In this document: positions 3,334 to 33,893 of the stretch, in pieces
Numbering within the stretch: position 1 is the first letter of the stretch
Layout of the letters: every line of letters begins with the position of its first letter
Assembly (NCBI RefSeq): GCF_014696355.1
Contig: NZ_JACJQA010000011.1
Coordinates: 1 to 51,848, forward strand
Origin: Pseudanabaena sp. FACHB-1998
GTDB taxonomy: Bacteria > Cyanobacteriota > Cyanobacteriia > Pseudanabaenales > Pseudanabaenaceae
Reading direction: 5' to 3'
Length of the DNA: 51,848 nucleotides
The notes under the pieces: model-generated
What the model saw: the letters and a program-made list of their open reading frames with translations, nothing else
Database searches by the model: none
Told to the model about the DNA's origin: nothing
Program-made: the position numbers and the translations under genes

Positions 3334-3366
3334 GAAATTAGCCAGTGCTACGCACTGGCTAATTTC
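3334..3366 (+). terminator. terminator-like hairpin after tRNA-Lys
   Basis: Perfect 15-bp arms 3334-3348 and 3352-3366 around a TAC triloop, 10 bases after the tRNA. Read on the other strand the apex is GCGTAGC, the GNA-type mini-hairpin seen in many palindromes of this window. Only a weak T-run follows. Just downstream (3368-3385) a sequence close to the end of a family C MITE (TATAGCTGTCGTC) is visible. Confidence 0.7.
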
Positions 3367-6741: not shown

Positions 6742-6807
6742 AGGATCAAATCATCGCCTAATTTACTAACTAAAAAGTTATTCGTAAACTTACTTATTCA
6801 TATAGTA

Positions 6808-6911
6808 ATACCAAATGAAGAAATGGCGTAGCCATTTCTTCATTTAAAAAACCTTACTGGGTTTGGTTTGTAAATCACAAAAGTGTTGTCCCACTTTCGT
6901 GATTTGGTATA
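6808..6911. mobile_element. family B MITE-like element, copy 1 (104 bp)
   Basis: Bounded by the terminal inverted repeat ATACCAAAT / ATTTGGTAT. It contains two sub-hairpins, one centred on GGCGTAGCC (arms AATGAAGAAATGGC and its complement) and one with arms AAATCACAAAAGTG and CACTTTCGTGATTT. The reverse complement of 16757-16860 is the same length and closely matching along its whole length, and 27432-27644 is a third, interrupted copy. Confidence 0.8.
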
Positions 6912-6951
6912 ACTAAAAGTTTGCTTAGGTTATAAAACGCTTTTTTTATAC

Positions 6952-9691: not shown

Positions 9692-9955
9692 ATGCCGAGA
9701 GAACCCAAAAAGCCTAATGAATACATCGTGCATTTAAAGCTAGAAGGTGGGCAAGAAGTCATAACAAAATTTACGACCATTGAAGAAGTGAAAACTTGGT
9801 ATGCATCGCAATTTAAGGCGAAGGCTAATGAGGATGATCTGATGCCTATTCCCGTAAGAGCCGAATTAAATGAAATTTTGCTGGTTCGTCCTAAACGGGT
9901 TATTGCTATTCACGTTGAGCCGATTTACTCCTCTAGCGTCGAAATGTTTTCATAA
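9692..9955 (+). CDS. conserved-looking small hypothetical protein
   Basis: An 87-residue soluble protein starting MPREPKKPNEYIVHLKLEGG, at an ATG with GGAG upstream (GTCGGAGTAGATCGAG). The first half is a predicted beta hairpin with the pattern YIVHLKLEGGQEVITKF; the middle is a helix (SIEEVKxWY type); the end is a strand (ILLVRPKRVIAIHVEPIY). No family recognised and no catalytic motif seen. The stop codon lies inside the next hairpin. It may be co-transcribed with the EamA gene 47 bases downstream. Confidence 0.65.
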   Translation: MPREPKKPNEYIVHLKLEGGQEVITKFTTIEEVKTWYASQFKAKANEDDLMPIPVRAELNEILLVRPKRVIAIHVEPIYSSSVEMFS

Positions 9956-9991
9956 AATTAAAAGGGGCGCTGCGCCCCTTTTAATTTTATG
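9951..9991. terminator. palindrome overlapping a stop codon
   Basis: Perfect 20-bp arms 9951-9970 and 9972-9991 separated by one T; core GGGGCGC-T-GCGCCCC. The left arm contains the TAA stop (9953-9955) of the preceding gene. The right arm ends in TTTTAATTTTATG, supplying a T-rich tail. An intrinsic terminator in form, but the complementarity extends into coding sequence. Confidence 0.75.
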
Positions 9992-10001
9992 AATAAAAAT
10001 A

Positions 10002-15024: not shown

Positions 15025-15106
15025 AGTAAGTAGCTAGGCATAATTAATTACAAACCAAAAGCCGTAAAGTTGCGCTCTGTAGGGGCGCAACTTTACGGCT
15101 TTTGGT
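15025..15106. mobile_element. family A MITE-like element, copy 1
   Basis: The tail GTAGCTAGGCATAATTAATT is followed by a hairpin with perfect 22-bp arms (15054-15075 and 15085-15106). The tail is the reverse complement of the one at 34793-34820, and related copies lie at 15712, 31148 and 33352. The hairpin may also end transcription of the Ycf51 gene, whose stop is 22 bases away. Confidence 0.7.
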
Positions 15107-15127
15107 AATTTATTTTATACAAGTACT

Positions 15128-15652
15128 TTATAAACTTTGATTTTTGGGAAGTTCCGCAAACTTATCGGGAAAGATCTCTATTTCAATATTGGGATCATTG
15201 CGAAGACTCAGCGATCGCTTAACACGCCCTAAATATAAAGGCTTCGATACACCTTCTTGAGGGTGAATAACTGTTCTCGCATAAATGGTAAGTTGCTCTG
15301 CACCTTGGCTATTGCGCCCAGGGGAAAATAAGTTGCTACTAGCTTGTTTCAATGTTGACACTAGCTGCTCAGGGGTGACAGTAGGCGGAACAACAATTGT
15401 TGCTTGGGGACCAAAGCGATCGAAAACAGTCTTAAAAGCAACCGAGCCTTCGATAGATGTGCGGGTAATTGGCTCAAAGCTTAGGGAAAATAGTCCTACA
15501 ACTAATACTACCGAAAAGAGGGTAGCGCCTACCATGCGATAGCGCCAGCTCCACTGACGGGCAACAGCTAAGCCTGTTACCAAAGCACATGCCAATACAA
15601 ATATGCCCATTCCCTGTGCAAGCTGACCAAATAAAGCAGGCGTTAACGACAT
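15128..15652 (-). CDS. ycf51: Ycf51 family membrane protein (DUF2518)
   Basis: A 174-residue protein with two N-terminal membrane spans (about 12-30 and 38-57) and a soluble C-terminal domain. The diagnostic regions are WSWRYRMVGATLF between and within the spans, EQLTIYARTVIHPQEGVS, and PLYLGRVKRSLSLRNDPN. Ycf51 is conserved in cyanobacteria and some algal plastids; its function is unknown and a photosynthesis-linked membrane role is only presumed. Monocistronic by appearance, flanked on both sides by hairpin repeats. Confidence 0.85.
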   Translation of the reverse strand: MSLTPALFGQLAQGMGIFVLACALVTGLAVARQWSWRYRMVGATLFSVVLVVGLFSLSFEPITRTSIEGSVAFKTVFDRFGPQATIVVPPTVTPEQLVSTLKQASSNLFSPGRNSQGAEQLTIYARTVIHPQEGVSKPLYLGRVKRSLSLRNDPNIEIEIFPDKFAELPKNQSL

Positions 15653-16756: not shown

Positions 16757-16860
16757 ATACCAAATCACGAAAGTGTGACAACACTTTTGGGTTTTAAAAC
16801 CCAAACCCAGTAAAGTTTTTCTAATGAAGAAATGGCTACACTATTTCTTCATTAGGTATA
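16757..16860. mobile_element. family B MITE-like element, copy 2 (104 bp)
   Basis: Same length as, and inverted relative to, 6808-6911, with the same two sub-hairpins (CACGAAAGTG...CACTTTTG type and AATGAAGAAATGGC...). One end is ATACCAAAT; the other has drifted to ATTAGGTATA. It ends 60 bases before the pirin start and may supply or disturb that promoter. Confidence 0.8.
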
Positions 16861-16869
16861 AAGTTTTAA

Positions 16870-16902
16870 GATTTTCATTTTGCCTGCGACAAAATGAAAA
16901 TC
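16870..16902 (+). promoter_or_regulatory. hairpin in the pirin leader
   Basis: Perfect 13-bp arms 16870-16882 (GATTTTCATTTTG) and 16890-16902 with a 7-base loop, ending 5 bases before the pirin Shine-Dalgarno sequence (AGGAGA at 16908-16913). It could influence mRNA stability or translation. Confidence 0.45.
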
Positions 16903-17673: not shown

Positions 17674-19383
17674 GAAGAGAAAGTATCTTTGTGCCATCGG
17701 CAATACTGATGCAGGTTCGCAAGTGAGTAATTCCCCATCGGCTCGGACTTCGTAAGTTTCCGAGTCAACTTCCATGTGAGGAAGCGCATCATTAAGTTTC
17801 ATATCCCGTTTACTGATATTACGAGTTCCTTTAACGGTAAGTACCTGCTTCTTCAAGCCTAATTGAGTAGGAATACCTCGCTCCATCGCAACTTGGGAAA
17901 GGAAAGTAAAAGATGTGGGCGCGATCGCTCCTGCATAACTGCCAAACATTGGACGCATATATACAGGTTGGGGGGTGGGGATACTAGCATTGGCATCACC
18001 CATCTGCGCCCAAGCAATGAAGCCTCCTTTCAATACCATTTCGGGCTTAACTCCAAAAAAGGCAGGATGCCAAAGAACTAGATCGGCGATTTTGCCCACT
18101 TCCACCGAACCGACATATTCAGAAATACCATGGGCGATCGCAGGATTTATCGTGTACTTTGCCACATAGCGCTGAGCGCGGAAATTATCAGCTCTAGTAC
18201 TTTCGGCACTAGAAAGAACTCCTCGCTGCACTTTCATTTTGTGAGCAGTTTGCCAAGTTCTAATAATCACTTCGCCAACTCTTCCCATTGCTTGCGAGTC
18301 AGAGGAAATCATACTGAATGCACCGATATCATGGAGAATATCTTCAGCAGCGATCGTTTCGCGACGGATTCTTGATTCTGCAAAGGATACATCTTCGGGA
18401 ATGCTAGGATCAAGATGGTGACAGACCATCAGCATATCAAGATGTTCATCAAGAGTATTTAAAGTATAGGGACGAGTGGGATTAGTAGAAGAAGGCAGAA
18501 CATTCGCTTCACCACAAATCTTGATAATATCGGGAGCATGACCACCACCTGCGCCTTCGGTGTGATAGGTATGGATGACGCGATTTTTAAAAGCGGCGAT
18601 CGTATCTTCCACAAATCCCGCTTCGTTAAGCGTGTCGGTGTGGATGGCAACCTGCACATCATATTCATCGGCAACACCTAAGCAAGTATTAATCGTGGCG
18701 GGAGTCGTTCCCCAGTCCTCATGAAGCTTTAAGCCGATCGCACCCGCTTCCACCTGTTCCACTAAGCCTTCGGGCTTGCTGCTATTCCCTTTTCCGAGAA
18801 ATCCTAAATTCATCGGGAAAGCATCGGCGGCTTGCAACATCCGATACATATTCCAAGGACCGGGGGTACAAGTTGTCGCATTTGTTCCAACGGCGGGTCC
18901 AGTTCCACCACCGATCATCGTCGTAATACCAGAAGCGATCGCGACTTCAATTTGTTGGGGACAGATAAAATGGATATGGGTATCAATGCCGCCTGCGGTG
19001 AGAATGCGTCCTTCTCCTGCGATGATTTCCGTACCCGCACCAATAATAATATCTACGTTATCCTGAATGTAAGGATTTCCTGCCTTCCCGATCGCCACAA
19101 TCTTGCCATCTTTAATTCCCACATCCGCCTTCACTACGCCCCACCAATCGAGAATCAGTGCATTGGTAATCGCAACATCTACGGCTCCATTGGCATTAGT
19201 AATTGGCGATTGTCCCATACCATCGCGGATCACCTTGCCACCACCAAATTTCACTTCATCGCCGTAGGTGGTGTAGTCTCGTTCGACTTCAATAAATAAT
19301 TCGGTATCAGCTAAGCGAACTTTATCACCAACGGTTGCGCCATAGGTTTCTGCGTAGGCACGGCGCGACATTCTATAACTCAT
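17671..19383 (-). CDS. ureC: urease alpha subunit
   Basis: A 570-residue catalytic subunit, the full usual length. The nickel ligands are all present: H136 and H138 ([10 protein letters not shown]), the carbamylated Lys K219 (GLKLHEDWG) with H221, H248, H274 and D362 (SSDSQAMG). The catalytic His H322 and flap Cys C321 lie in MVCHHLDP. It hydrolyses urea to ammonia and carbamate in the cytoplasm with UreA and UreB. It starts 4 bases after the ureB stop and is the last gene of the ureD-ureA-(Uma2)-ureB-ureC run. No disrupted residue is seen, so it should be active when UreD, E, F and G are made. Confidence 0.98.
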
Positions 19384-19724: not shown

Positions 19725-19753
19725 TAGGATGTAGGGCAAAGCACTACATCCTA
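19725..19753. terminator. small palindrome overlapping the Uma2 stop codon
   Basis: 10-bp arms TAGGATGTAG (19725-19734) and CTACATCCTA (19744-19753), core GGCAAAGC. The right arm contains the stop codon of the Uma2 gene. It lies directly upstream of ureB and could cut read-through into ureBC. Confidence 0.6.
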
Positions 19754-20395
19754 GATGTTGAGAATTTGAGCAGCAGTTAAGTCTAGTTCAGGAAAAGTCC
19801 GCGAATTAATTTTGTCATCTCCTATAAATTTAGTTGTTTGATATTTACCTTTTTCATCTAATAGGTTGACAAACACAGTGGGGATTTTAGGATTACCAAG
19901 AAACTCACGGCTAGCGATCGCTAAATAATCCACAATCCAATATTCAGAAATACCTATGCGTTGATATTCTTCAAACTTGTCAACATAATCATCTTCCCAG
20001 TTTGTAGAAACTACTTCAACAGCTAGCTGAATTTTGTCCCCAAATCCTTTATAGTCACTACGATTAGAGCGCCAAGATGTCGCATCGATCACACTTACGT
20101 CAGGTACACGCCCACGCTCATTTCCGCTTTGGTCGATGCTTCTTATGGGAACCGCTCTCTTAATGACATAGTTAAGAGCTAATCGTTCGACTTCACGATA
20201 AAAACGTCTATCAATAAATTCTCCAACATCGTCATGATTGCGTGTAAATGCCATTTCAAAAATCTCAATTAGCTCGCCATCAATAAGCTCGTAATGACCA
20301 TATTCAGGATAAATTTTTAGAAACTGCTCAAAGGTTATTTTCTGTTCTCCCTCTGTTTGTTTCTGTTGATTTTTGGGCGTTGCGATCGCAATCAT
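19751..20395 (-). CDS. Uma2 family endonuclease-like protein (DUF820)
   Basis: A 214-residue protein of the Uma2 family, which has a PD-(D/E)XK-like restriction nuclease fold. Visible motifs: GHYELIDGELIEI in the N-terminal half, VPDVSVID, then LAVEVVST (catalytic E-x-V) and ISEYWIVDYLA. Function in cells is not established. It sits between ureA and ureB on the same strand, a place normally occupied by no gene, so it is probably an insertion into the urease operon; flanking hairpins mark both ends. It is likely co-transcribed with the urease genes, but a role in urease is not implied. Confidence 0.85.
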   Translation of the reverse strand: MIAIATPKNQQKQTEGEQKITFEQFLKIYPEYGHYELIDGELIEIFEMAFTRNHDDVGEFIDRRFYREVERLALNYVIKRAVPIRSIDQSGNERGRVPDVSVIDATSWRSNRSDYKGFGDKIQLAVEVVSTNWEDDYVDKFEEYQRIGISEYWIVDYLAIASREFLGNPKIPTVFVNLLDEKGKYQTTKFIGDDKINSRTFPELDLTAAQILNI

Positions 20396-20419: not shown

Positions 20420-20462
20420 AATCGATCAAAATAAAGTGCAAAGCACTTTATTTTGATCGATT
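20420..20462. terminator. palindrome after ureA
   Basis: Perfect 20-bp arms 20420-20439 and 20443-20462 around AAA (AAAGTGC-AAA-GCACTTT), ending 1 base from the ureA stop codon. It could attenuate transcription between ureA and the Uma2/ureBC part. Confidence 0.75.
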
Positions 20463-20463
20463 G

Positions 20464-20766
20464 TTAGCGAATAGGATTATGTACTGTCACAAGTTTAGTT
20501 CCATCAGGAAAAGTAGCTTCTACTTGCACATCATGGATCATTTCGGGAATGCCTTCCATCACGTCATCATGGGTGAGCAAAGTTGCGCCATAGGACATCA
20601 ACTCGGCAACTGTACGACCTTCCCTCGCACCTTCTAAAATCTCCGCAGTAATAAAGGCGATCGCTTCAGGATAATTTAACTTCAAACCTTTAGCTTTACG
20701 ACGCTCTGCTAATAATGCAGCCGTAAAAATCAATAATTTATCTTTTTCTTGAGGCGTAAGTTGCAT
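20464..20766 (-). CDS. ureA: urease gamma subunit
   Basis: A 100-residue subunit, the standard length. It begins [20 protein letters not shown] and contains [40 protein letters not shown]-type and the C-terminal TVHNPI, all characteristic of UreA. It forms the urease core with UreB and UreC. It lies 130 bases after ureD, separated by the 62-bp tandem hairpin repeat. Confidence 0.97.
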
Positions 20767-20774
20767 GAATATCT

Positions 20775-20918
20775 ACCAAACTCTAGGTAAGCATTTACTT
20801 GGTTTTTGATTTTGGCGAAGCCAAAATCAAAAACTTACCAAACTCTAGGTATGCATTTATTGAGTTTCTAGTTTTGGCGAAGCCAAAACTAGAAACTCAC
20901 CAAACCCTAGGTACGCAT
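20775..20918. repeat. 62-bp tandem repeat with two hairpins, fused to the ureD 3-prime end
   Basis: The sequence ACCAAACTCTAGGTA-N-GCAT occurs at 20775, 20837 and (one change) 20899, exactly 62 bases apart. The third copy is the coding end of ureD (Val-Pro-Arg-Val-Trp-stop). Between copies lie two hairpins, 20802-20834 and 20862-20898, both with GGC-GAA-GCC at the apex. Their arms differ at three positions in the aligned part, and every change is matched in the opposite arm, so both stems are perfect. Confidence 0.85.
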
Positions 20919-21721
20919 ATTGCTCTATCCCTATAGGATACACGCAAAAGCTGCCAAATTTGCTGAAACCATTTACGCGCATCGCTAGAGGAGTCTCCAA
21001 AATAACGACATACTAAACCTGACAGCGATCGCGTAACTCCTGACATTCCTCGATAATTTCCCCCTTCCCAAGTAGAACGAATGTGTGTAATTAATTCAGG
21101 CTCTACGGTTGCACCGACAAAGATAAAATTTGCAGCGATCGCATAATTATTTAATCCATTAGGACTCCCTAACATTTCTGTATTTCCATTGAGATATTGT
21201 CGATCAATCCATAGCGGACTTTGGTCGCGCCATACCTCCATATGCGATCGCCAGTTACCATCCAGAAATTTCTCTCCCCTAGCTGTGCGTCCAAACCTGA
21301 TAATTTCCCACATCGTAAAAGTGGCGGCTGGTGCTAGATCAATTCTGGTTTGCTGACGATATTGCGCTTCGGAAAACACAATTGTCTCCTGTGGAAACCA
21401 TTCCAAGCTTGCCCCTTCATCAATGCGGATATGAACATTTTGTAGAGATTCTGCACCTTTGCTGCGATAGATTTTGCTAGCAGCAGCCGTAGTAATCAGG
21501 GCTTGGGTTTGGGGTTGCAAATGGATTTTTGCAGACAGGCGATCACCCCCCACTAGACCACCTGCGGTATGTAAAAGAATACAATGACAAATTTCTTCGC
21601 CTTCAGGATAAAGCGATCGCTGAATTTTCCAAGGTGCTACGGTGTAATTACGGGTTAATACTGTTTGTTGATTCCGTTTCGCAAATTCTAATTCTAATTC
21701 TCCCGCCCAAGGTGAAGCCAT
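20897..21721 (-). CDS. ureD: urease accessory protein UreD
   Basis: A 274-residue accessory protein that binds apo-urease and delivers nickel with UreF and UreG. Family motifs: CHCILLHTAGGLVGGD, QALITTAAASKIYRS, GASLEWFPQETIVF and MWEIIRFGRTARGE. It heads the urease gene run, 108 bases after the urtE stop. Its last codons belong to the direct repeat of the 62-bp tandem, so the present C-terminus (CVPRVW) may have been shaped by that repeat or was the source of it. Confidence 0.95.
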   Translation of the reverse strand: MASPWAGELELEFAKRNQQTVLTRNYTVAPWKIQRSLYPEGEEICHCILLHTAGGLVGGDRLSAKIHLQPQTQALITTAAASKIYRSKGAESLQNVHIRIDEGASLEWFPQETIVFSEAQYRQQTRIDLAPAATFTMWEIIRFGRTARGEKFLDGNWRSHMEVWRDQSPLWIDRQYLNGNTEMLGSPNGLNNYAIAANFIFVGATVEPELITHIRSTWEGGNYRGMSGVTRSLSGLVCRYFGDSSSDARKWFQQIWQLLRVSYRDRAICVPRVW

Positions 21722-21778: not shown

Positions 21779-21827
21779 AACATAAAAATAAGGGAGAGTG
21801 CGAAGCACTCCCCCTTATTTTTATGTT
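21779..21827 (-). terminator. palindrome after urtE
   Basis: 23-bp arms 21779-21801 and 21805-21827 with one mismatch, GAA apex (GAGTGC-GAA-GCACTC). It ends 1 base before the urtE stop codon, and on the reverse strand runs into a T-rich stretch. It separates the urt and ure gene sets and may act as a partial terminator between them. Confidence 0.75.
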
Positions 21828-21828
21828 T

Positions 21829-22551
21829 TTAAACTGCTAGGAATTTCTGAATTACTTCATTACTTAGCTCTGAAGTTTTACCAGAGGCGACAATACCGCC
21901 TTTTTGCATGGCGTAATACCAATCCGCTTGGCGGACAAAGTGCAAATGCTGCTCTACAAGCAGGATTGAAATCCCAGTGGTTGCCACAATATGTTTAACT
22001 GCCGATTCAATTTCTAAAATAATCGATGGCTGAATTCCTTCCGTTGGTTCATCGAGAATTAACAATCTAGGTTGTCCCATCAAAGCACGGGCGATCGCTA
22101 ATTGTTGTTGTTGACCGCCGCTAAGGTCTCCGCCCATACGATTGAGCATCGATTTCAATACTGGAAATAGCTCATACACCATATCCAAAAGGTTTTGGCG
22201 CACCGCAGGAGTAACTGGGTGAGACTCCAAACCTAGTAAGAGATTTTCTCTGACGGTCATACGGGGCATGACCTCGCGACCCTGTGGCACATAGCCCACA
22301 CCCATTCTAGCTCGGCGATCGGGAGTAAGTTGAGTGATATCCTTCCCAAAAAAGGAAACATCACCCTGTCTCGGTTTTAGTAATCCCATGATTGTTTTTA
22401 ATAGAGTGGTTTTACCTACTCCATTACGACCAATTAGGCAGACCATTTTGCCAGCCGCCACACCCATATCCACATTGCGGAGAATATGGCTTTCACCATA
22501 ATAAACATTGAGATTATTAATTTGTAAAATCGGATCGTAAGTTTCTTCCAT
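21829..22551 (-). CDS. urtE: urea ABC transporter ATP-binding protein UrtE
   Basis: A 240-residue LivF-like ATPase. Walker A GRNGVGKTT, Q-loop, signature LSGGQQQQ, Walker B LLILDEPTEG and the switch His in LLVEQHLHFV are intact. The first residue overlaps the last base of urtD. It powers high-affinity urea uptake together with UrtD. Confidence 0.95.
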   Translation of the reverse strand: MEETYDPILQINNLNVYYGESHILRNVDMGVAAGKMVCLIGRNGVGKTTLLKTIMGLLKPRQGDVSFFGKDITQLTPDRRARMGVGYVPQGREVMPRMTVRENLLLGLESHPVTPAVRQNLLDMVYELFPVLKSMLNRMGGDLSGGQQQQLAIARALMGQPRLLILDEPTEGIQPSIILEIESAVKHIVATTGISILLVEQHLHFVRQADWYYAMQKGGIVASGKTSELSNEVIQKFLAV

Positions 22552-23303
22552 TATTCTTCCTCTTCCTGATGTCCCAAATAAACTTCAATGACTCGTGGAT
22601 CATTTTGCACTTCTTCAAAATTGCCTTCACAAAGGACGCTACCTTGATGCAAAACCGTTACTTTACGAGCAATCTGACGCACAAACTCCATATCATGCTC
22701 AATCACGATAATGGAATGGGATTCTGCCAAAGACATTAGCAATTCGCCAGTTTTTTCGGTTTCTTCGTCAGTTAAGCCCGCTACAGGCTCATCCACTAAC
22801 AACAGGTCGGGAGATTGAGCAATTAACATCCCAATTTCTAGCCATTGCTTTTCGCCGTGTGATAGAAACTCGGCTTTCATTTCCGACTTGTGCATCAGTC
22901 CAATGACCTTTAGCAAGTCATTCACTTTTTGCTTTTCAACTACCGATGGTGGCTTAAACAAAGTAGAGAAAACATTTTTATTGGGATTACTTGCTAACTC
23001 TAGGTTTTCTCTGGGAGTGAGATTGAGATATACACGGGGAGTTTGAAACTTGCGACCTACGCCCATTCTGGCAATTTTATGCTCTGAAAGCGATCGCGTA
23101 TTTTTACCTTTAAATCGTACCTGACCTTCAGTGGGCTTCACTTTACCCGTAATTACATCTAAAAATGTGGTTTTGCCCGCACCGTTAGGACCAATAATTA
23201 CTCGTAATTCACCCTGCTCCATCTCAAAGTTTAAGTTGTTAATAGCTTTAAACCCATCGAAGCTTACCGTAACATTTTCAATCTCTAAGATTCTGCCGCT
23301 CAT
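22551..23303 (-). CDS. urtD: urea ABC transporter ATP-binding protein UrtD
   Basis: A 250-residue LivG-like ATPase. Walker A GPNGAGKTT, signature LSHGEKQWLEIG, Walker B LLLVDEPVAGL and the His of IVIEHDMEFV are present. LSHGEKQWLEIGML with the His in the signature is typical of UrtD. It overlaps the end of urtC by 26 bases, implying translational coupling. Confidence 0.95.
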   Translation of the reverse strand: MSGRILEIENVTVSFDGFKAINNLNFEMEQGELRVIIGPNGAGKTTFLDVITGKVKPTEGQVRFKGKNTRSLSEHKIARMGVGRKFQTPRVYLNLTPRENLELASNPNKNVFSTLFKPPSVVEKQKVNDLLKVIGLMHKSEMKAEFLSHGEKQWLEIGMLIAQSPDLLLVDEPVAGLTDEETEKTGELLMSLAESHSIIVIEHDMEFVRQIARKVTVLHQGSVLCEGNFEEVQNDPRVIEVYLGHQEEEE

Positions 23304-24483
23304 TTTGTACCTCTGGATCTAATTCAAGACTGGGATATGTAACCTTGGGTCTCCGACTAAAAACTCGTTGGAACAGCAATAAGCCACTAGTTTTGAACCA
23401 ACCCACTAAACCATCGGGTAGCACCATCACCACAATTAAGAACATCGCGCCCTGAAAGAACAACCAGATTTCGGGGAACTGCTCACTTAATAGACTTTTA
23501 GCAAAATTAACTAAAATTGCGCCAATTAATGCTCCGATCAGCGTAGAGCGACCACCCACGGCAACCCAAATCACCATTTCAATGGACAGTCCGATATCCA
23601 TCGACTTCGGAGAAATAATCCCTGTCTGGGGTGTGAAAAGAGCGCCGCCAATACCTGCTAAAACTGCGGATATGGCAAATACCAAAACCTTAAACCCTGT
23701 AGGATCGTAGCCTGAAAATCTGGCACGGTTTTCATCATCCCTAAGAGCAATTAACAATCTACCAAATCTTCCACTCGTAAGCCAACGACATAGCACATAG
23801 GCTAGTCCTAAAAAGGCAACGGTAAGAATATAGAAAAATCGCTGGGTTTCAGGAGCATTGATGTCATAACCAAAGATGGTTTTGAAGTCAGTGAGTCCAT
23901 TTGTGCCATTAATATATTGCTGCTGACCGTTGAAGAAGTTAAAGAAAATAATCGTGGTTGCTTGGGTCAGAATCGAGAAATATACGCCGCGAATGCGATT
24001 TCTGAATACGAGATATCCTAAGATTGCGCCCACGATCGCTGGTATTAAGACGATCGCTAAAAGCGTAAATTCAAAGGAATAAAACGGCTCCCACAATGCA
24101 GGTAATTTCGTAATGCCATAGAGAGGCATGAAGGAAGGTAACTTCTCTGTTGCATCGGCAGGAAATTGCAGCTTTAAGTGCATGGCGAGGGCATAGCCGC
24201 CCAATCCGAAAAATACGCCATGACCTAAACTAAGAAGCCCTGTATAGCCCCAGATCAAATCAATTCCTAAAGCCACGATCGCTAAAGCTAGAAATCGCCC
24301 TAGCATCGTGATCCGAAAGGCTTGACCCGTTGCTTTAAAAATTTCGGGAATTACAAAAATCAATAATAAGGCGATTGCCAAGCCGACACTAACTTCAATG
24401 CCAAGCGATCGCCACTTGTTTTTTGATGGATTCGGCGAGGTAGATTGATTCGGAATCGTAGAAATATCTTCTGTCGTACTCAT
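23278..24483 (-). CDS. urtC: urea ABC transporter permease UrtC
   Basis: A 401-residue LivM-like permease with about ten membrane spans. Family features: LIWGYTGLLSLGHGVFFGLGGY, and the cytoplasmic coupling loop LIALRDDENRARFSGYD followed by GIGGALFTPQTG. The start is 5 bases after urtB. Confidence 0.95.
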   Translation of the reverse strand: MSTTEDISTIPNQSTSPNPSKNKWRSLGIEVSVGLAIALLLIFVIPEIFKATGQAFRITMLGRFLALAIVALGIDLIWGYTGLLSLGHGVFFGLGGYALAMHLKLQFPADATEKLPSFMPLYGITKLPALWEPFYSFEFTLLAIVLIPAIVGAILGYLVFRNRIRGVYFSILTQATTIIFFNFFNGQQQYINGTNGLTDFKTIFGYDINAPETQRFFYILTVAFLGLAYVLCRWLTSGRFGRLLIALRDDENRARFSGYDPTGFKVLVFAISAVLAGIGGALFTPQTGIISPKSMDIGLSIEMVIWVAVGGRSTLIGALIGAILVNFAKSLLSEQFPEIWLFFQGAMFLIVVMVLPDGLVGWFKTSGLLLFQRVFSRRPKVTYPSLELDPEVQNERQNLRD

Positions 24484-24488
24484 AATAA

Positions 24489-25658
24489 TTACAATTCCAC
24501 TGAACGACCTTTTTGAGGAAACATTCCCGCAGGCTTATATTGCAAGAAAGCAACAATCATCAGGAACAGCAGCACTTTTGCCATACTGGTAGTTCCAAAG
24601 AAAGTGAAAAATCCTGCAACGGGACTTAGTGGACCAAATAAAGTAACAAAGGTTTGGGAACCGAAGAGATAGCTGGTGATCCCAATCGCCATGGCTGCCG
24701 CAATACTACCCACCAACTTACCGACACCACCAACGACAACCACCATAAAGGTGTCTACAATATAGTTTTGTCCAGTATTTGGTCCCACGGAGCCAAGGAA
24801 GCTAACCGCACATCCTGCTATTCCTGCTAATCCTGAGCCAAGAGAAAATGTTAAAGCATCAACAGTTTTAGTAGGAATACCTAAACAGGAACTCATTTGT
24901 CTATTTTGAGTTACCGCACGGATTCTCAAGCCCCAAGGTGACTTCTCTAGAAATAGATAGATGCCCACCACACAGGCAATGGTCAAAACGATGATAAATA
25001 AGCGGACATAGGGTAATTGTAATGATCCGATCGCGATACCACCTCTAAGCCACTTAGGAGCAGTCACGTCCACATTCTGAGCGCCAAACCAAGGTTGGGT
25101 CACAGCCATTTTGTAAATCTGTCCCAGAAATACTGCCACTGCCCCTGAAATTGCGAGGGATAGGGGTAAGAGGATCGCGATCGCCCAATTCCGAATCGCT
25201 TCCCAATTAGGTCTTTTCTGTAAAATCCAGACAGCCCCAAAATATAACAGGCTAAAAACTAATATTGCTGCAATAATCACCCAATTTACGCTGCGGACAA
25301 ATTGTTGCAAAATCAAGCTTACGCCCCAAGTTGCTAAAAGTGTTTCTAATGGTCGTCCATAGAGATAACGAATTACTCCCTTTTCCAAGAGAAATCCGAT
25401 CCCTGCTGTCACTAAAAAAGCGGCAATTAGGGCTGCAAAAACATAAAAATCTGTCCAAGGTTCTCCTAACTTTTTGAAGCCATTCTGTACCACAAAGGTT
25501 GTATATGCACCCAGCATCATCAATTCGCCGTGAGCCATATTAATTACGCCCATCAAACCAAAGACGATCGCCAATCCTAATGCAGCTAATAATAGTACCG
25601 AACCCGTACTGATACCATTAAATACTCCCTCTAGAAGTCGGAGAAGATTTTCATTCAT
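24489..25658 (-). CDS. urtB: urea ABC transporter permease UrtB
   Basis: A 389-residue LivH-like permease. INMAHGELMMLGAYTTFV near the N-terminus, a long middle insertion (about 125-205) typical of UrtB, and the coupling loop RAVTQNRQMSSCLGI. Membrane protein with 8-10 spans. It forms the channel with UrtC. Confidence 0.95.
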   Translation of the reverse strand: MNENLLRLLEGVFNGISTGSVLLLAALGLAIVFGLMGVINMAHGELMMLGAYTTFVVQNGFKKLGEPWTDFYVFAALIAAFLVTAGIGFLLEKGVIRYLYGRPLETLLATWGVSLILQQFVRSVNWVIIAAILVFSLLYFGAVWILQKRPNWEAIRNWAIAILLPLSLAISGAVAVFLGQIYKMAVTQPWFGAQNVDVTAPKWLRGGIAIGSLQLPYVRLFIIVLTIACVVGIYLFLEKSPWGLRIRAVTQNRQMSSCLGIPTKTVDALTFSLGSGLAGIAGCAVSFLGSVGPNTGQNYIVDTFMVVVVGGVGKLVGSIAAAMAIGITSYLFGSQTFVTLFGPLSPVAGFFTFFGTTSMAKVLLFLMIVAFLQYKPAGMFPQKGRSVEL

Positions 25659-25715
25659 GACTCTATCTACATAAAAAACATGAGCAGATTCGGCAATAAA
25701 TACCGAACAGAATCA

Positions 25716-25809
25716 AAATAGTTTGCTATGCAGACATTGCCCACACAGCAAACTATTTCGAGGTTTAAGTTGATGGGTAACAGGCAAGGGGCTTAAGCCC
25801 CTTGCCTGT
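25716..25809 (-). terminator. two hairpins between urtA and urtB
   Basis: An imperfect hairpin with 12-bp arms (25716-25727 and 25747-25758) and, nearer urtA, a perfect 30-base palindrome at 25780-25809 (ACAGGCAAGGGGCTT and its complement, no loop). The latter ends 10 bases from the urtA stop. This is the usual place for a partial terminator or mRNA-stabilising stem that lets the binding protein be made in excess over the membrane subunits. Confidence 0.65.
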
Positions 25810-25818
25810 AAAAGAAAC

Positions 25819-27162
25819 CTATGCTTTCTTGAACTTACCACCCTTAGCCTTATCAGAGTAATCGCAAGCAAAGCCCTTAGTCTCTGCAACAAATTGGTTC
25901 CAAGGTAATGGAGCCACTGCGGACTTGGTTTCATAAACCACTTTGAATTGTCCATCAGGTGTAACTTCACCAATACGGACAAACTTAGACAAGTGATGGC
26001 TGTTTTCCATAGTCACCTTGCCTTCTGGAGCGTCAAAGGTTTGACCGAGAGCAGCCATTCTTACGGCTTCAAGATCCTCTGCTTTACCTGCTTTCTCAAC
26101 CGCTTGCTTCCAAATGTTTACAGCGATGTATCCAGCTTCCATAGGATCATTGGTTACACGATCTGCACCATACTTAGCCTTGAAAGCTTCGACGAACTTC
26201 TTGTTAACAGGGTTGTCAACGGTCATGAAGTAATTCCATGCTGCATAGTGACCCTTGAGGAATTCAGGACCGATCGCTTTAACTTCTTCTTCGGCGATAC
26301 TAACGGACATCGAAGGATATTTGTCAGCAGTCAGACCAGCACCTTGCATCTGTTTGAAGAAAGCAACGTTACTATCACCATTGAGGGAGTTGTAAATTAC
26401 GCCGCCATTGGGAAGTGCTTGCTTAATCTTGGTGATAATTGGTGTAACTTCAGAGTTGCCCAAGGGTAGATAGTCTTCACCGACTACCTTACCGCCCGAT
26501 GCTTCCAATTGAGCTTTAATGATTGTGTTTGCAGTGCGAGGGAACACATAGTCAGAGCCAACGAGGAAGAACTCTTTACCCTTGTTCTTAAGCAACCATT
26601 CTACAGAAGGCTCAATCTGTTGGTTAGGAGCGGCTCCAGTGTAGAAGATATTCTTAGAACATTCTTGACCTTCGTACTGAACTGGATAGAAGAGTAAATG
26701 ATCTTTTGACTCAAATACAGGCAATACAGCTTTACGGCTAGCAGAAGTCCAGCAACCAAACACGACAACTACCTTGTCTTGGTCGATTAATTTCTTCGCT
26801 TTTTCAGCGAATGTTGGCCAGTCAGAGTTACCGTCTTCAACGATCGCTTCGATTTGCTTACCAAGCACGCCGCCTTTCTTGTTAATTTCTTCGATCGCAA
26901 GTTGAGTTGCATCGACCAAGCTCTTTTCACTAATTGCCATAGTGCCGCTCAAGGAATGCAAAATGCCAACCTTGATTGTTCCACCCTTAGCTGCCGCAGT
27001 ACTAGCAGCAGTAGGAGAAGCAGCAGTTGTTGCTGCCGTAGTTGCAGCAGTTGTAGTAGTTGCTGTAGGTGTAGATGGGGTACAGGCTTTAATTAAACTA
27101 CTAACGCCCAGTGCAGCAGAGCCATAGACGATAAACTTACGACGATTCATTCTCTTGCTCAT
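25819..27162 (-). CDS. urtA: urea ABC transporter substrate-binding lipoprotein UrtA
   Basis: A 447-residue periplasmic binding protein. The N-terminus has a twin-arginine sequence ([15 protein letters not shown]) leading to a lipobox SLIKAC, so it is likely Tat-exported and lipid-anchored at that Cys. An Ala/Thr linker of about 30 residues follows (low complexity). The mature domain starts [16 protein letters not shown], a Leu/Ile/Val-type periplasmic fold; [20 protein letters not shown] and [20 protein letters not shown] are the urea-binding UrtA signatures. First gene of the urt operon, downstream of a perfect NtcA box. Confidence 0.96.
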
Positions 27163-27431: not shown

Positions 27432-27644
27432 ATACCAAATCAAAAGATGGCGTAGCCATCTTTTGATTTGGTATCACTGGATTTGATTTTTATAGCTGTG
27501 GTCAGTCTTGTTAGCACACAAAACCAGAAGACGAGTTGCGGCGCGAAGCGCCGCAACTCGCTTCTTGGGTTTTGATTTGCCCTAATGCAAGTGACCACAG
27601 CTATAAATCACAAAAATATTGACTCACTTTCGTAATTTGGTATA
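27432..27644. mobile_element. family B MITE-like element, copy 3, interrupted
   Basis: Starts with ATACCAAATC and ends ATTTGGTATA like 6808-6911. The left part is itself a perfect palindrome (27426-27451 with 27455-27480, apex GGC-GTA-GCC). The right part (27605-27644) keeps the AAATCACAAAA and CACTTTCGTAATTTGG segments. Between them lies the complete family C element, so about 98 bases of family B sequence flank a 115-base insertion. Confidence 0.75.
27491..27605. mobile_element. family C MITE, complete (115 bp), nested in family B
   Basis: Perfect 14-bp terminal inverted repeats TATAGCTGTGGTCA (27491-27504) and TGACCACAGCTATA (27592-27605). A central hairpin has 25-bp arms with the apex GCGGCGC-GAA-GCGCCGC (27520-27572, one mismatch). 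No ORF. The ends begin and finish in TA, so a TA target duplication, as made by IS630/Tc1-type transposases, is possible. Confidence 0.8.
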
Positions 27645-31927: not shown

Positions 31928-31992
31928 ACGGATTTATCTTTAACTTATACTATTGTGAATAGAGTTACAGCGCTTTGCACTTTCTTAAAACC

Positions 31993-32043
31993 CAGATAAA
32001 TTTTCAAAAAGTTTACTTTACAAGCTTTTTAAAAATTTATCTG
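31993..32043. repeat. family E hairpin in the ureG-ureE promoter region
   Basis: Arms beginning CAGATAAATTTT (31993) and ending AAAATTTATCTG (32043), nearly perfect, around GTTTACTTTACAAGC. The loop resembles that of 801-869. It lies between divergent starts (31927 and 32111), so it must sit in or beside both promoters. Confidence 0.65.
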
Positions 32044-32110
32044 TAATATACAAAACCTCAATAGGCTGTAATCGCTATCCACCATAGTACAAGAGTATAG
32101 TTTCGGAATT

Positions 32111-33444: not shown

Positions 33445-33562
33445 ATATAGCAGTGTAAGTTTTGCTTAGGACATAAAACCCAAAAAGCGAGTTGCGGCGC
33501 GAAGCGCCGCAACTCGCTTTTTGGGTTTTGGTTTGTACTGGCTAACTCTTGCTTTGCTATAT
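33445..33562. mobile_element. family D MITE-like element (118 bp)
   Basis: Short terminal inverted repeats ATATAGCA and TGCTATAT flank a hairpin with perfect 26-bp arms (33475-33500 and 33504-33529) and a GAA apex. The central 29 bases of the hairpin (33488-33516) are identical to 27532-27560 in the family C element, although the ends of the two elements differ. Confidence 0.65.
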
Positions 33563-33893
33563 AGTGTGACTCTAGAAAACCTATTTAATTTACGTTAGAT
33601 AAAGTGTAGAAAAACTTCATTTGATGTAAACATTCCTCTTTAGTAAAATCACCTCAGAATATTTAGTGTTAACTATTAATTTTAATTAGCTGCTTATTTT
33701 TATTTGGCTCATAAAACACATAATCCCCAATAAAAATGTTACATACTACACTTTATATTTTCTCTAAATTTAAGATTTGGCAATTACTAAAAGCTGTTCT
33801 AGAATTACTATATTTAAAAGGTTAGCAGGTAGAAGATTATTACAGACTCATATTTCTACGCATAGGCAGATACTCCCCAATAGTTAGAAAAGT
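33563..33893. other. AT-rich intergenic stretch upstream of the diguanylate cyclase
   Basis: About 330 bases, strongly AT-rich, without an ORF of note and without strong palindromes. It presumably holds the promoter and leader of the gene at 33894. A GTA-N9-TAC at 33829-33843 has the wrong spacing for NtcA. Confidence 0.5.

Follow-up and report, generated by a model that had tools for sequence, protein, structure and literature searches.

Loop inversion and matched arm changes in hairpins at the ureD end and across the genus Pseudanabaena

Small inversions associated with hairpins were reportedly described in chloroplast DNA by Kelchner and Wendel in 1996, and quasipalindrome correction is said to be the subject of work by van Noort and colleagues; the chloroplast itself is an organelle of cyanobacterial descent. 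A review attributes small chloroplast inversions to hairpins (PMC12371153), as we do for the inversions below, although it concerns plant plastids rather than a cyanobacterial chromosome. Template switching has been published as the cause of both arm homogenization and spacer inversion (PMC8604942). According to the same paper, yeast coding genes resemble the present case in the exact inversion of short spacers (2-5 substitutions), in perfect arms longer than 9 bp, and in the re-matching of arms; they differ in that ten spacer inversions, in coding sequence, were described, whereas here a third of the hairpins are inverted between two close strains, mostly in intergenic DNA. A study of template switching in the making and maintenance of RNA hairpins (PMC8794818) poses the same question as ours, the origin of perfect stems and compensated changes, and it describes as less clear the part that template switching plays in keeping up short stems; its table gives 69 cases of loop inversion only, 6 with a compensated change and 9,406 isolated compensated changes, whereas inversion is the commonest change here. 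In bacterial inverted repeats, spacers vary more than arms (PMC13155455), as they do here, but that study counts single-nucleotide variants; a term search of its text returned neither "template switch" nor "reverse complement", and part of the excess of variants may, we infer, consist of whole-spacer inversions. In the open-licence PMC literature we found no description of inverted hairpin centres in the chromosome of a cyanobacterium. Small hairpin inversions in chloroplasts and yeast, and spacer variation in bacteria, are known, and what appears to be new is the rate of inversion, and its scale, in the chromosome of a bacterium. It is an open question whether selection or copying error gives rise to perfect stems and compensated changes, and a bacterium with hundreds of centre-inverted hairpins between close strains would make both processes directly measurable.

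The window analysed here is a stretch of 51,848 nucleotides from Pseudanabaena sp. FACHB-1998. Its initial annotation had described, at the end of ureD, a repeat of period 62 with two full units and a partial copy formed by the ureD end, and Tandem Repeats Finder returned the same structure (20774-20918, period 62, 2.3 copies). The repeat lies between ureD (urease accessory protein; 20897..21721, minus strand, identified by ORF and Pfam UreD) and ureA (urease gamma subunit; 20464..20766, minus strand, ORF and Pfam). Both full units, the one nearer ureA at 20774..20835 and the one nearer ureD at 20836..20897 (both minus strand), consist of a hairpin and a copy of the ureD 3' end, and are identical at 52 of 62 positions; the partial third copy (20898..20918, minus strand) is formed by the coding end of ureD. 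Read along the coding (minus) strand, a unit has its hairpin first and its ureD-end copy second, the ureD end proper being the third copy. Both hairpins are perfect and have the loop GAA on the plus strand (TTC on the minus strand), with arms of 15 bp in one (20802..20834) and 18 bp in the other (20861..20899). Over their shared 15 bp, three aligned arm positions differ and all three differences are compensated, just as had been reported, with both stems perfect. The next two outer pairs, which the initial annotation had passed over, differ as well, and their differences are uncompensated, the bases being paired in 20861-20899 and unpaired in 20802-20834.

The repeat stretch folds as RNA with a z score of -8.5, matched by none of 200 shuffles, and only one perfect hairpin (perfect arms of at least 10, loops up to 4) occurred across five first-order Markov sequences of the window's length. 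Together with the covariation shuffles described below, these controls rule out chance as the origin of the ureD hairpins and of their compensation. A comparison of 20774-20918 with Rfam yielded matches of 18 to 25 bits, all far under the gathering cut-offs. The ureD hairpins share with intrinsic terminators perfect stems soon after stops, but their 3' arm is A-rich whichever strand is read and they lack a T tract; a scan for intrinsic terminators did not pick them.

Unit number was followed across a genus sample of 26 genomes, 24 of which gave a ureA match and, with it, a readable ureD-ureA junction (three second ureA homologues without ureD, L108-L110, were dropped from the count). Printed junctions, read by eye, carried no unit in 7 genomes, one in 11 and two in 6; the variation among relatives that the initial annotation proposed to look for is present, and the locus behaves as a variable-number tandem repeat. 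The seven empty sites have a single ureD end. Two units are found in our genome and G018, and in G022, G025, G007 and G006, which form two groups within a supported group of eight; the rest of that group (G015 and G017) is empty, as is G011, the lineage just outside it. In a tree from which the ureD end was left out, unit number requires at least five changes, and presence or absence at least four. In all 17 unit-bearing genomes the first hairpin starts with the ureD stop codon, which keeps the end of the protein, and in four two-unit genomes the last ureD-end copy is shortened by 9 bp. Because units number 0, 1 or 2 across the 24 genomes, and because two are present also in the single-contig assemblies G007 and G022, the repeat is not an assembly artefact. 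A hairpin of the same class just past the ureA stop (20420..20462, 20-bp arms) likewise comes and goes: it is absent at the same place in G007, G018, G015 and G004, and present in the distant G020 with a compensated arm difference.

We aligned the arms of 15 gap-free ureD hairpins (13 distinct) from these genomes, omitting eight of the 11 one-unit genomes, whose stems differ in length or sequence. Paired cells made up 89.6% of the alignment as against 81.9% in shuffles; the covariation score was 0.249 versus 0.110, with none of 500 shuffles as high, and 19 cells were changed on both sides versus 6.3 in shuffles, again unequalled in 500. Six stem pairs show changes on both sides. In one compensated column orthologues differ by a transversion, with T-A in our genome and G-C in G022, G025, G007 and G006. 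Pairing extends to all 17 positions in only two of the 15 hairpins, the others having 11 to 16 pairs. Uncompensated arm changes are found in G025, G018, G004, G010 and G005, and those of the first four are one-step, single-sided intermediates of the columns that separate the two window units. Loops vary as well: that of the ureD-proximal hairpin (20861..20899) is reverse-complemented between our genome and G018, and that of the other hairpin (20802..20834) between our genome and G025.

These hairpins are not isolated structures. We defined a class of perfect hairpins with arms of at least 11 and loops of 1-10, and found 202 of them in 421 kb of our genome, or 48 per 100 kb; eight other genus genomes, each sampled over more than 30 kb, held 15 to 74 per 100 kb. 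At urease loci elsewhere the yield was 6 in 101 kb for 18 loci of other cyanobacteria, so that our genome is roughly eight times denser, and 14 in 367 kb for 62 non-cyanobacterial loci. Extrapolation gives an estimated 2,000 such hairpins, approximately, per genome. Among the 202, 91 are singletons and the remainder are clustered, the biggest clusters having 34, 25 and 12 members. Hairpins fall predominantly in spacers between ORFs (430 of 471 in three genomes, with a simple ORF call), at 5.15 per kb in convergent, 2.16 in codirectional and 1.85 in divergent spacers, and in codirectional spacers 159 of 208 are closer to the upstream stop. The 3' arm is T-rich and terminator-like in 150 of 202; an A-rich type accounts for 18 of 202, a minority that by their letters includes the ureD hairpins. 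When mismatches were allowed in 16-bp arms, there were 119, 72, 43 and 47 hairpins with 0, 1, 2 and 3 mismatches, respectively, and in those with one or two the mismatches were towards the loop or the outer end, not in mid-stem. Loss of the hairpin nuclease SbcCD is not supported as a cause: SbcD, the subunit searched, gave a match over the cut-off in 26 of 26 genomes. The search for a similar duplication at other gene ends, also proposed in the initial annotation, came back all but empty, as a scan of 619 hairpins in seven genomes for exact matches within 45 bp on each side found, outside urease loci, only a CRISPR-like repeat to be comparable. The 62-bp unit is one instance of the class, set apart by the duplicated gene end at its flank. 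In L208 (G007), at about 17830-17950, a CRISPR-like 39-bp direct repeat flanks a 35-bp stretch that is itself a perfect inverted repeat. Separately, MITE-like stretches of 100-120 bp occur in the window at 6800-6912, 16757-16871, 15025-15128, 27491-27611, 31964-32078 and 33446-33563; they match many sites in the genus, among the matches listed mostly in G018, and several have inner hairpins.

Close strains G006 and G007 allowed changes in these hairpins to be counted. About 266 kb could be aligned in 12 blocks of 95.1 to 99.7% identity, eight of them at 99.2% or above; 16 other pieces of G006 had no alignment of at least 1,500 bp with the sampled stretches of G007. Of 110 hairpins present in either genome, 62 are identical, 31 are exact reverse complements, 4 combine an inverted loop with an arm change and 13 are otherwise different. 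Setting aside two with self-complementary centres and adding two further flips recognized among the others, the centre is flipped, including inversions with an arm change or indel, in 37 of 108 informative hairpins, compared with 2,177 substitutions in 261,561 positions outside hairpins. Under a two-state model, the path between the two genomes carries 0.58 flips per hairpin, which exceeds the per-base substitution distance by a factor of some 70 to 136, according to the distance chosen. Flips were seen at every arm length (5/24 for 11-14 bp, 10/26 for 15-17, 11/27 for 18-20 and 11/31 for 21 or more); inverted hairpins numbered 24 of 78 with arms up to 20 bp versus 11 of 32 with longer arms (Fisher p 0.82). 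Three-base loops flip most (23/42), and loops of 8-10 not at all (0/12). In one inverted tract (b90b 93005) the flip carried an arm mismatch over to the opposite side, so that inversion by itself leaves the arms unrepaired.

A graph assembler may leave loop orientation open only where the arms exceed its word length. Loop inversions occurred at all arm lengths, and were seen also between the few-contig assemblies G015, G022 and G025, which makes an assembly artefact an unlikely source of them. E. coli served as a control: in three comparisons, each covering 43-47 kb, a scripted exact-inversion score gave no exact inversion in 36 hairpin comparisons (12, 11 and 13), in a small set with arms from 9 bp whose comparisons are not independent; the differing rows, read by eye, likewise held no flipped loop. 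Centres replaced by their exact reverse complement between close relatives, the pattern of a template-switch hotspot, and recurrent loop inversion between conserved arms in non-coding DNA, the pattern of chloroplasts, are thus both found here. In such genomes a loop that differs should be scored as a single event rather than as several substitutions. G006 contig C90 includes blocks of 95-98.5% identity to G007 among blocks above 99%, which suggests recombination between lineages, though one of the lower-identity blocks is perhaps partly misaligned.

Arm changes were counted in the same strain pair. Since a hairpin had to have perfect arms in the genome in which it was detected, only about half of the divergence is visible, and on this basis 12.5 differences are expected under neutrality in the G006/G007 blocks with less than 2% intergenic divergence. 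The observed number is 20 in 5,756 arm positions, 10 of the 20 coming from one block and most hairpins being counted from both genomes, and no pair is compensated. Adding the four blocks above 2% gives 26 of 7,662 versus 79.5 expected (p 3e-12), which would read as conservation and counts against neutral change in the arms. We give the blocks above 2% less weight, because in the largest the intergenic divergence is 7.6% versus 0.8% in coding sequence, which suggests local misalignment. The purifying selection on arms that an uncorrected comparison indicated is accordingly gone from the blocks below 2% once discovery is corrected for, and would be read again from the arms if the blocks above 2% were kept.

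Wider comparisons do contain compensated changes. In 36 disjoint orthologous hairpin pairs (not fully independent, ten being G015/G022 and several sharing a locus across genomes), 18 arm pairs are compensated, 4 are changed on both sides and unpaired, and 61 are changed on one side. This count left out all G006 pairs, pairs with flanks below 80% identity, and pairs with many gaps or low similarity, and it replaces an earlier, redundant one (61 reference hairpins; 31 compensated, 7 both-changed and unpaired, 89 one-sided) in which pairs were counted twice; in the larger redundant set, compensated changes were fewer than one-sided ones in every divergence bin. By chance, one compensated change is expected for every two unpaired both-side changes, and 18 of 22 against one third gives p 4e-6. 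The compensated pairs comprise 11 transitions and 7 transversions, and the one-sided changes 33 and 28; transversions have no wobble intermediate. As to arm-copying in a single event, the closest pair of genomes has no compensated change and the 36 wider pairs have 18, which may have arisen in one step or in several. The absence of compensated change in the near-identical G006 and G007, together with the one-step intermediates at ureD, makes it appear that compensation takes at least two steps. The initial annotation had dismissed independent point mutations, and the same two observations, along with the other uncompensated changes in relatives, speak against that dismissal. Its proposal of either selection on the stem or an intra-stem correction fares better, in that compensation is non-accidental (19 versus 6.3) and inversion frequent; the second step may be either copying or selection.

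Flips of the centre between intact arms, which here far outpace single-letter mutation, are the published signature of intermolecular template switching (PMC8604942, PMC8794818), at an unusual rate. Given that inversion is so frequent, matched arm changes are most simply traced to arm copying, and we lean towards template-switch correction, with a good deal of reserve, as what keeps the arms matched. Under such a model the unit at the ureD stop, a hairpin of about 44 bp with an 18-bp copy of the ureD end, whose hairpins are members of a genus-wide class of short perfect inverted repeats, would have been doubled, once or more, in the lineage of our genome, G018, G022, G025, G007 and G006, with its number shifting between species and empty sites perhaps arising by precise loss between the flanking 18-bp repeats. 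At a hairpin during replication the growing strand would change templates. By crossing to the other strand and returning it would yield the inverted centres that we observe, and by a snap-back switch it could copy one arm onto the other and so re-match them. Point mutations would enter the arms at about the neutral rate, as in the least divergent blocks of the one strain pair, and would later be erased or copied across, so that related hairpins come to differ by matched changes. Selection for termination probably helps to keep many hairpins of the class, since most are intergenic, often soon after stops, with a T-rich 3' arm; the ureD pair, of opposite, A-rich polarity, is probably near-neutral.

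Several observations weigh against copying, or against copying alone. No arm-copying event was caught, and one-sided changes outnumber compensated ones (61 versus 18); as they do so in all divergence bins, re-matching must be slower than centre inversion. Most compensated changes (11 of 18) are transitions, which would be expected as well if arms evolved step by step through wobble pairs, the arms look conserved if the divergent blocks are kept (26/7,662 versus 79.5), and the placement at gene ends suggests selection or function at many hairpins. Selection on the stem, as RNA or DNA, would account for these features if single arm mutations were tolerated, second mutations that restore pairing were favoured, and switching flipped the loops only. 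The one-step intermediates at ureD are what such a process would leave, as is the rise from no compensated change in the closest pair to 18 of 83 changed arm pairs in the wider comparisons; 26 changes for 79.5 expected when all G006/G007 blocks are kept, the concentration in spacers (5.15 per kb convergent against 1.85 divergent) and the 150 of 202 terminator-like T-rich 3' arms fit it as well. The near-neutral arm change of the least divergent blocks (20 differences where 12.5 are expected) gives selection little footing, however, since it holds no purifying signal; compensation by transversion is frequent (7 of 18), the unit is missing at ureD from 7 of 24 genomes, and the A-rich polarity of the ureD arms is counted for only 18 of 202 hairpins. 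We regard stem selection as possible, yet would not expect it to be the answer.

Two further accounts fare worse. If the hairpin unit were a transposed mobile element of the MITE or REPIN type with a target-site duplication, the empty site with one ureD end and the filled site with two would resemble insertion with an 18-bp duplication, and other hairpins of our genome do form families (clusters of 34, 25 and 12 among 202). Across the whole genome, however, a 124-bp query had no match at E 0.001 other than its own site, so that the ureD unit lacks there the dispersed copies that mark such elements, and flanking duplications were not seen at the other hairpins among the 619 examined; this origin is improbable. 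Still harder to credit is neutral decay alone, in which hairpins made perfect once would drift and gain compensated positions by chance. Imperfect copies in many relatives and the tail of mismatches in 16-bp arms (119, 72, 43 and 47) are in keeping with drift, but 18 compensated pairs to 4 changed on both sides and unpaired, where chance would give one to two, and a covariation score at ureD of 0.249 rather than 0.110, are not. The 36-pair count largely contradicts neutral decay, which would survive only if alignment bias had made the compensated pairs. Returning to template-switch correction, arm covariation, commonly taken as proof that an RNA structure is functional, could come from a mutation process that couples the arms, and the genomes of this genus are well suited to studying how hairpins are kept intact by copying errors. 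It is a more speculative thought, and to our minds rather a doubtful one, that template switching is a main force on non-coding DNA here, with some 2,000 hairpins per genome, flips greatly exceeding base mutation, and copying that keeps hairpins perfect without selection; if so, a single culture should hold both orientations of many loops.

Other features of the window were noted in passing. A further hairpin of the class (21779..21827), flanked by ureD and by the ABC-transporter gene that ends at 21829, has one arm mismatch in our genome, and compared with G018 its loop is inverted and one stem pair compensated. The stem of a hairpin after tRNA-Lys (3334..3366) has compensated changes in relatives, and a hairpin at 9949..9993 is held at one place in seven genomes with its stem core partly swapped. 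Between ureA and ureB, within the urease cluster, lies a gene of the Uma2 family (putative restriction endonuclease; 19751-20395, minus strand). Antisense to ureC, 18942-19225 (plus strand) matches the Rfam 5' ureB sRNA at 112 bits against a cut-off of 40, a match that may reflect just conserved urease coding sequence. Directly upstream of ureD, at 21829-27162, are genes resembling a urea-type ABC transporter (permeases, two ATPases and a binding protein), putative names given by eye from the ORF translations.
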